From Bacteriovoracaceae bacterium (GTDB lineage: Bacteria; Bdellovibrionota; Bacteriovoracia; Bacteriovoracales; Bacteriovoracaceae): 38,881 nt of DNA. This document shows, one piece after another, positions 9,463 to 11,427 of this stretch. Position 1 is the first letter of the stretch. Every line of letters begins with the position of its first letter. The translations under genes were made by a program, and so were the position numbers. The DNA lies in the NCBI GenBank assembly GCA_947448205.1, contig CANFNL010000004.1, positions 1 through 38,881 on the forward strand. Reading direction: 5' to 3'. The notes beneath the pieces are model-generated. The model had not been told where the DNA came from. It ran no database searches and was given only the letters and a program-made list of their open reading frames with translations.

Positions 9463-9938
9463 TGACAGCTCACTTTACTTGTAAAAATTGCGCCTCTGGA
9501 ATTCATGTTTATCCTGAAGTATCTGCTAAAATTATTAAATGCGAAGTCTGTAGTCATGAGCAAGATGTACTCTTCACCCAAGAAAATGTTGATGGGCTAT
9601 TAGTTAATTGTCCGGGCTGTTCTCGTAGAGACTTCTACTCACAAAAAGATTTTAATCGCAAAATTGGAGTTATCTTTTTTATTGTGGCCGCCCTTATTTC
9701 AACGTTGATGTTATGGGCCGGATTAAGCCCGCAATGGTACCTCAGTACTTTTATCGTGCTTTATGCTGCCGATTTTTTCCTCTTTAGAAAACTCAAACCA
9801 ATTGCCATTTGCTACAAGTGTGATGCCATTTTTCGCGATGTGAAAAATATTGAGCAAATTCCTGGCTTTGATCACGAAATGCATGACCGCATTGTCTATT
9901 CCGACCATGATTTTCAGGGAAAACCACTCGATCATTAA
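9459..9938 (+). CDS. Zinc-ribbon protein with two membrane helices
   Basis: The 159-residue protein holds four CxxC pairs: C8/C11, C28/C31, C51/C54 and C118/C121. The first two pairs make one classical zinc ribbon. The third pair precedes, and the fourth follows, two membrane helices (about 68-88 and 94-109), so a second metal site might span both sides of the hairpin. The start overlaps the stop of the upstream membrane gene (ATGA); a second ATG follows at once. The C-terminal tail is acidic and histidine-rich. Function is unknown; coupling to the upstream membrane protein suggests the two act together. Confidence 0.75.
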   Translation: MMTAHFTCKNCASGIHVYPEVSAKIIKCEVCSHEQDVLFTQENVDGLLVNCPGCSRRDFYSQKDFNRKIGVIFFIVAALISTLMLWAGLSPQWYLSTFIVLYAADFFLFRKLKPIAICYKCDAIFRDVKNIEQIPGFDHEMHDRIVYSDHDFQGKPLDH

Positions 9939-9964
9939 GCTATCCTTTTGAAATAAGTGGATAG

Positions 9965-9994
9965 TTGGACAAAAATAAGACTAGGGTGTAAAAT
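9965..9994 (+). promoter_or_regulatory. Probable sigma-70 type promoter for the CNNM gene
   Basis: TTGGAC at 9965-9970 and TAAAAT at 9989-9994 are separated by 18 bases, close to the sigma-70 pattern. A transcript starting near 10001 would have a leader of about 47 bases containing the AAGGA ribosome binding site at 10036-10040. No ATG, GTG or TTG lies in the useful frame of this leader. Confidence 0.45.
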
Positions 9995-10047
9995 AGCAGC
10001 TAATTAAACTAAGTCAGGTTAGCTATTTACTTAACAAGGATTTATCC

Positions 10048-11427
10048 ATAGAACCCCCCCTAGAGCTATCGAGTACCTCACTTCAAATTTTCTTTCTCTT
10101 TGTATGCTTCATTGCCACAGCATTTTTTTCTGCCGCGGAAGCTGCCCTTTTATCCATTGGTGCTGATCGCGCTCGCCAACTTATTGAAGAGGGTGGAGCA
10201 AAAGGCAAAGCAATGGCCTTTATGATTCTTCGCCCTTCTGAATTGTTATCAACAATACTGGTGGGAAATAGCATCGCCAATATTTTAGCAGGATCTCTAA
10301 CAACTTCATTAGCTACGGCTTATACAGGTAGCAGTATTGTAGGAATTGCTTTAGGTGTTACTACAGTTATCGTTATTATTTTCGGTGAAATTTTGCCCAA
10401 AACAGTTGGACGAAATCACGCTGAAAAACTTTCGGTTTTTGCCATTCGATCTCTGCAAATTCTTTTTTATCTGCTCTATCCAGCTATAAAATCAATTGTT
10501 TGGTTTATCAATACTATTTTAGGTGATAACGCTGAGGTCACGGGGAGAATGGTTACTAGTGATGATATCGAATTCATGATCAGCAAAGCGGAGAAAGAAA
10601 AAACGATGGACTCAAAGCAAATTGATTTGCTTTCATCGATCTTGGAATTTCCATTGATAAAAGTAAAAGACATCATGATTTCTAGGATGCACGTAAACTA
10701 TATTCAAAGTAAATGGACGGCAAAAGAAATCATGGCCTATATTAGAGAAACGGGAAACAGTCGTTATCCTGTTTGTGATGGGGAGCTAGAAAATATAGTC
10801 GGATTTTTACATGTAAAAGATTTGGCTTTTTTAAGCGATGAAGAAAAAATTAATTTTAAAATTGAGAATTTGTTAAAGCCTCCTTTTTTTGTTTACGAGC
10901 ATATGAAGATCCAAGGTGTTTTCGATCATATGAATAGAAAAAAAGTTCATTTAGCCTTAGTTAAGGATGAAAATGGAACAGTGGTTGGTATTGTTACTCT
11001 CGAAGATATTATCGAAGAAATTTTTGGCGAGATTAATGATGAACACGACGATGTAGAAGAAAAAGAAAAGCATCTTTTAGAAGCTGATTTAGAAGAAGGA
11101 ATCGTTGTCGAAGGAGATATGTCTCTAAGAGAATTTTATAGCGACTACGATATAAAAATTCCCCTCAATGATAATTACTCAACACTTTCTGGTTTTTTAT
11201 TAGATATGCTAGGAAATACTTTTCCGGAACAAGGACAAATTATTGTCTGGGAAGGATTATCTTTTGATTTGGAGTTAGTAGACAATCATGTCATCAAGCA
11301 AATTCGTATTAAAGACGTGGATGGAGAGAAACATATTTTTTCAAAACGCCAACACGCTGAGCTTGTTGAGCAGAGTGATATTGAAGCTTCAAAACAAATT
11401 CATGACAAAGATTATTCCGAAAAATAA
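10048..11427 (+). CDS. CNNM/CorC-type membrane protein with CBS pair, AUA start proposed
   Basis: Members of this family (HlyC/CorC, DUF21-CBS) are inner-membrane proteins linked to magnesium or other cation transport. Domain order is clear: DUF21 membrane domain with the FSAAEAALLS motif and a GNSIANI helix, two CBS repeats (GFLHVKDL and IVTLEDIIEEIFGEI), and a C-terminal CorC_HlyC domain. The first ordinary ATG in frame (10213) would cut off the first membrane helix and FSAAEAALLS. The frame is open back to 9997 and has no ATG, GTG, TTG or CTG before 10213. AAGGA at 10036-10040 points to ATA at 10048, giving 459 residues, a normal length. It precedes the flavoprotein gene by 25 bases. Confidence 0.85.
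   Translation: MEPPLELSSTSLQIFFLFVCFIATAFFSAAEAALLSIGADRARQLIEEGGAKGKAMAFMILRPSELLSTILVGNSIANILAGSLTTSLATAYTGSSIVGIALGVTTVIVIIFGEILPKTVGRNHAEKLSVFAIRSLQILFYLLYPAIKSIVWFINTILGDNAEVTGRMVTSDDIEFMISKAEKEKTMDSKQIDLLSSILEFPLIKVKDIMISRMHVNYIQSKWTAKEIMAYIRETGNSRYPVCDGELENIVGFLHVKDLAFLSDEEKINFKIENLLKPPFFVYEHMKIQGVFDHMNRKKVHLALVKDENGTVVGIVTLEDIIEEIFGEINDEHDDVEEKEKHLLEADLEEGIVVEGDMSLREFYSDYDIKIPLNDNYSTLSGFLLDMLGNTFPEQGQIIVWEGLSFDLELVDNHVIKQIRIKDVDGEKHIFSKRQHAELVEQSDIEASKQIHDKDYSEK

Follow-up and report, generated by a model that had tools for sequence, protein, structure and literature searches.

AUA/AUC starts followed by Pro-Pro in a leader coupled or fused to a CNNM transporter gene of the Bacteriovoracaceae: a candidate weak-start control element

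Where does translation begin in a gene whose reading frame offers no ordinary start codon? The question is raised by a transporter gene of the Bacteriovoracaceae, a family of predatory bacteria, found in a stretch of 38,881 nucleotides which is referred to as a whole as the window. The original prediction, made from this single genome, held that no ATG, GTG, TTG or CTG lies between the in-frame stop and the first in-frame ATG, that the FSAAEAALLS helix of the protein is encoded 5' of this ATG, and that AUA is the best start candidate. The first two observations were borne out by a scan of the frame and by the position at which the domain begins, and the third is strongly supported by the orthologues described below, which show ATA or ATC at the same codon. 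The coordinates of all features are collected in Table 1.

Table 1. Features of the transporter locus, in window coordinates.
Feature	Position	Strand	Remarks
Promoter-like, sigma-70-like pair TGGACA (9966) / TAAAAT (9989-9994)	9966..9994	+	17-nt spacer, 10/12
In-frame stop TAG, upstream frame boundary	9994..9996	+	
Shine-Dalgarno AAGGA, context AACAAGGA	10036..10040	+	7 nt before ATA
ATA start codon	10048..10050	+	ATA/ATC in 13 fused genus members and 71 family loci
Leader start ATA GAA CCC CCC (fMet-Glu-Pro-Pro), left over from the family-wide leader ORF after its fusion	10048..10059	+	
CNNM/CBS/CorC_HlyC transporter ORF	10048..11427	+	459 codons from ATA, stop TAA 11425-11427; Pfam and solved CorB/CNNM relatives
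First in-frame ATG, within the transmembrane domain	10213..10215	+	implausible as start

Concerning the protein itself, counting residues from ATA 10048, Pfam places the CNNM transmembrane domain (PF01595, E 8.7e-42) at residues 16-189, followed by the CBS pair (PF00571, E 9.6e-17) and CorC_HlyC (PF03471, E 6.6e-14), which is the domain order of CNNM/CorB proteins. The alignment with CorB chains of known structure begins at residue 15 (7m1t CorB, E 3.7e-45). On the same count the ATG at 10213 is residue 56, hence a start there would cost the first transmembrane helix (TM1), because the CNNM domain and the CorB alignment begin at residues 15-16. The domains are those of the CNNM/CorB/CorC family and the protein is in itself unremarkable; what sets it apart is the way its translation starts, together with the leader. 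The CNNM protein of the family is probably a Mg2+ exporter or a high-Mg2+ tolerance factor, with a presumed direction of transport.

Before the FSAAEAALLS helix the frame contains only four near-cognate codons, ATT at 10003, ATA at 10048 and ATT at 10087 and 10111, among which a Shine-Dalgarno (SD) sequence is present at the ATA only, and the spacing of this SD is as good as had been claimed. The predicted -10/-35 pair is likewise there, and it recurs in several relatives of the genus as TTGGACA...GTAAAATA. The SD context, ACAAGGAT / ACAGGAG in the window (10034-10041) and in relatives, resembles what we take to be a CsrA-type binding core. Most of a C7 run (10054-10060) falls inside the ATA GAA CCC CCC block.

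The CNNM gene is present in all 14 genomes analysed from the window's genus. Thirteen, among them that of the window, have the frame fused; the codon is ATA in 11 of these and ATC in two. An ATG at the site of ATA 10048, which the original prediction itself had named as evidence that would count against it, was looked for in the relatives and not found, nor does any ATG, GTG or TTG precede TM1 in the 13 fused members. The block reads AAGGA or CAGGA as SD, ATA/ATC, GAA (AAT in two members), CCC, and CCC or CCG. In many loci an in-frame stop sits 15-18 nt 5' of the ATA/ATC, beside the SD, which makes an earlier start impossible there. The fourteenth member, G010 (L014/L082), is unfused: its ATA GAG CCT CCC opens a leader of 19 codons, which stops 4 nt short of the transporter's own ATG. 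A sequencing error, a strain-specific mutation or a pseudogene, which the draft state of the window's genome (203 contigs, 89% complete) might have suggested, is ruled out for practical purposes, since the 13 fused orthologues share ATA/ATC, the same codon occurs in independent assemblies across the family, and the ORF is intact with all its domains.

A start elsewhere, at ATG 10213 or at one of the three ATT codons, is in turn very improbable. ATG is the best codon type and infC of the genus appears to use ATT; however, the ATG removes TM1, ATT 10003 sits upstream of the in-frame stop seen in many relatives, and the ATT codons at +39 and +63 have no SD, nor are they kept in all fused members. 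The only SD-bearing start is ATA/ATC, and the comparison makes it nearly certain that initiation at AUA/AUC is real.

The start is not confined to the fused genus. The family set comprises 80 loci, mostly from Bacteriovoracaceae and Halobacteriovoraceae, 78 of them with usable upstream sequence. In a scan which limited codon 1 to ATA, ATC or ATT, a leader ORF was found in 71 of these 78 (ATA 56, ATC 15, ATT 0). Its layout is an SD, a spacer mostly of 7-10 nt, chiefly 7, 8 or 10, ATA/ATC and then, in nearly all, GAR CCY CCN; the leader is 14-37 codons long, with an unconserved tail. What the original prediction could not reveal from one genome is that the start belongs to a family-wide leader, normally a separate ORF and fused only in the window's genus. 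In the open-access papers searched, no description of an AUA/AUC-Glu-Pro-Pro leader before CNNM was found.

Three less restricted searches were also made, one allowing any codon before the Glu/Asn-Pro-Pro block, one with an ATN pattern across 369 genomes of the phylum, and one with ATN as well as TTG, GTG and CTG in 40 further regions, some of them repeats. None of the three yielded an ATG at leader codon 1. The ATN search gave 58 family matches at most 200 nt upstream of CNNM (ATA 47, ATC 11), and among its remaining matches within the family ATG occurs three times and ATT once; elsewhere in the phylum the matches, which are pattern matches alone, are sparse and mix ATA, ATC, ATT and ATG. The only canonical-type start seen for the leader is the TTG of G021 and G136 (L197 and L198, one genus), which read TTG GAA CCC CTG with a longer SD spacer. 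Apart from these two exceptions the start is conserved among orthologues with no canonical start available, as in other genes with AUH starts. At least 7 family loci have no recognisable leader. In L111, L112, L115, L105, L107, L120, L206 and L207, family members of this kind, CNNM begins at an ordinary ATG.

The position of the leader relative to the transporter gene is equally regular. All 60 unfused leaders stop close to the CNNM start, at -4 to +13 nt from its first base, overlapping or adjoining it as coupled leaders do, and in 35 of them the overlap is exactly 4 nt (NTGA). The CNNM starts in these loci are ATG (49), GTG (8) and TTG (3), so that start-codon use is otherwise ordinary, which serves as an internal control. 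Leader SDs have a mean of -6.2 kcal/mol against the anti-SD, compared with -2.5 at random sites, and 62/71 reach -5 kcal/mol or better, i.e. the good SD expected of AUH genes. The CNNM SDs are weaker (-4.6 kcal/mol), some being nearly absent, and this combination fits the delivery of ribosomes to CNNM by the leader. The comparison thus gives strong support to translational coupling of leader and CNNM, which we regard as very likely, with a strength that we infer. A frameshift fusion of the two in the unfused loci was considered and rejected, as the CNNM frame extends upstream for only 20-100 nt before it closes, short of the leader start.

Codon 1 of the leader is ATA in 79% against a background of 7.5% of Ile codons, and ATT, which makes up 62% of Ile codons, is absent from it. 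At codon 2 the wobble position is neutral (GAA 48 : GAG 18, vs 69:31 in CNNM bodies), as expected for a translated Glu. At codon 3, CCC or CCT accounts for 67/71 and CCA, which makes up 33% of Pro codons, for 0/71; at codon 4, CCG stands in 48/71, vs 15% in the background. This bias at codons 3 and 4 could stem from other causes, e.g. avoided pairing with the SD. Several lineages have Lys, Arg or Asn in place of Glu at position 2, hence Pro-Pro and the start codon weigh more than acidity, and a purely acid-driven destabilisation is weakened as an explanation. Nucleotide conservation in the leader stops after position 14. The nucleotide constraint at codons 1, 3 and 4, which goes beyond amino-acid need, might also be read as the mark of an RNA-level site AUMGARCCYCCN, a small-RNA target or protein site in which AUM is not an initiator. 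We consider this improbable. It is at odds with the neutral wobble at codon 2, with the AUM frame reaching its stop at the CNNM start in 60/60 unfused loci, and with AUM being the sole SD-bearing start before TM1 in the fused genus. Furthermore, no conserved RNA structure was found around the start (empty alifold, MFE z +0.39), where the SD is slightly more open than in shuffles, and no Rfam family matches the window at 9900-10300 at E<1.

On a tree of 71 CNNM proteins, 11 of them fused, codon 1 has switched between ATA and ATC at least 10 times and no case of ATT or ATG appears. An A or C at the third base of codon 1 is therefore probably selected, given that transitions to ATT and ATG, presumed to be the easier mutations, are never seen. 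The 11 fused sequences group in a single clade (97/84) whose sister is the unfused L082, which argues for a single event of leader-transporter fusion. Since the leader has been fused into the transporter in the window's genus, the whole protein depends there on AUA/AUC.

This pattern suggests that a deliberately weak start and two early prolines control the amount of transporter. Our overall reading, which we hold to be likely, is that of a leader with a weak start and a proline checkpoint, which would couple CNNM synthesis to initiation and early elongation, and plausibly to cytosolic Mg2+. In the window, translation would begin at AUA 10048 and read fMet-Glu-Pro-Pro-Leu into the CNNM transporter. 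Initiation on AUA/AUC would be inefficient and checked by IF3: infC, ccpN and citZ of S. aureus have AUA starts, with reporters at ~10% of AUG (PMC13009471), and in vitro the rejection of weak third-base pairs is aided by IF3, EF-G and RRF (PMC10158994). The ribosome would next have to get past the early Pro-Pro step (CCY-C), at which short peptidyl-tRNAs are prone to stalling, slippage or drop-off. Those ribosomes that finish the leader would go on to translate CNNM through termination-reinitiation where the two frames overlap, and in the fused genus both checkpoints, start and Pro-Pro, would act directly on the transporter. Against this reading stand the absence of AUU, for which mere weakness of the start would not account, the TTG of one genus, the replacement of Glu in several lineages and the family loci with no recognisable leader.

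As for the signal, Mg2+ is a tentative candidate, put forward by analogy. The EPDP sequence of MgtL destabilises ribosomes at low Mg2+ (PMC11282234), the decoding of CCC/CCU depends on TrmD, a Mg2+-requiring enzyme (PMC6335274), and Salmonella responds to high Mg2+ with induction of CorC and MgpA, of which CorC carries a ribosome-destabilising sequence at its N-terminus (PMC12421838). It is on account of the weak AUA-type starts, the MgtL-like codons and enterobacterial CorC/MgpA that the leader is proposed as a Mg2+-dependent gate. The likely output would be CNNM rising with Mg2+, because passage of MgtL through M-E-P and CCC/CCU is reportedly Mg2+-dependent; plentiful Mg2+ would then give more CNNM and scarce Mg2+ less. 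The most specific form of this proposal, in which the selection of AUA/AUC (no AUG, no AUU) together with the Pro-Pro checkpoint is the sensor of a Mg2+-responsive translational valve, is speculative and rather doubtful.

The alternative that survives best accepts the AUA/AUC starts and the coupling as real and lets them only fix a low transporter level, with no Mg2+ or other signal. Weak starts can indeed simply limit expression, as illustrated by the AUA/AUU reporters of S. aureus at ~10% of AUG (PMC13009471), and the unconserved leader tail agrees with such a cap. However, a fixed cap needs no Pro-Pro, no CCY at codon 3 (67/71) and no CCG at codon 4 (48/71), nor need it shut out ATT, GTG and almost all TTG. 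We judge a fixed cap possible but unlikely, and lean, with some reserve, towards regulation through codons 1-4.

The start codon is kept non-AUG in about 70 species-level genomes, with no escape to AUG through all the A/C interchanges. To our knowledge, conservation of an AUA/AUC start is a great rarity, documented for only a few bacterial genes (infC, pcnB, ccpN, citZ). Here a non-AUG leader start adjoins an MgtL-like proline block in front of a transporter of a Mg2+ family. The separate, overlapping and fused leaders form a natural series that bears on the part played by weak initiation and an early Pro-Pro in setting expression, and on whether the first four codons read Mg2+. If the valve reading is true, the choice of a non-AUG start would itself be a regulatory element, conserved in a leader peptide. 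It should also be noted that ORF callers limited to ATG, GTG and TTG would miss the leaders and shorten the fused transporters by one transmembrane helix.

Among known systems the closest in design is MgtL of mgtA (E. coli, Salmonella), likewise a short ORF before a Mg2+ transporter gene, with Met-Glu-Pro and CCU/CCC prolines, whose early elongation has been reported as a Mg2+ sensor (PMC11282234, PMC6335274). The E. coli mgtL sequence, which we checked, begins ATG GAA CCT GAT CCC and has CCY at all its Pro codons. The Bacteriovoracaceae leader shares Met-Glu-Pro and CCY before a probable Mg2+ transporter, with Met only if AUA/AUC initiates with fMet. MgtL differs in having an AUG start 140 nt before mgtA, Rho-dependent attenuation and an importer as its target, whereas the present leader has AUA/AUC (TTG in one genus), an unconserved tail and a CNNM/CorC transporter. 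In place of a long structured leader with attenuation there is an ORF that abuts, overlaps or is fused to the transporter gene, with neither an Rfam match nor a conserved fold. The leader is not classed as MgtL, because its start is AUA/AUC and not AUG.

YoaL offers a second likeness, as an overlapping leader before a CorC-domain transporter gene: it overlaps yoaE/mgpA, and its translation supports that gene (PMC12421838). CorC (YbeX) resembles the fused form in carrying destabilising codons at the transporter N-terminus. YoaL has an ATG start and no EPP start, and compared with both, the Bacteriovoracaceae element occurs in either arrangement, coupled or fused, and has a non-AUG start.

The third comparison is with the conserved non-canonical starts preceded by a good SD, i.e. 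infC-type AUU/AUC/AUA, pcnB, and S. aureus ccpN, cvfC1 and citZ; those of infC type and of ccpN, cvfC1 and citZ are weak and thought to be IF3-sensitive (PMC13009471). The likeness to infC drawn by the original prediction has turned out to be apt. By eye, infC of the window's genus (L185-L195) appears to start at ATT or ATC, some 75-100 nt upstream of the IF3_N match, as GAGGTAAATT ATT AAA GAC AAT... or ATC AAA GAA AAC...; the leader never uses ATT, though infC of the same genus appears to do so. In infC, pcnB, ccpN, cvfC1 and citZ the unusual codon starts a structural gene, whereas in the Bacteriovoracaceae it mostly opens a leader ORF, is followed by Pro-Pro and is never AUU.
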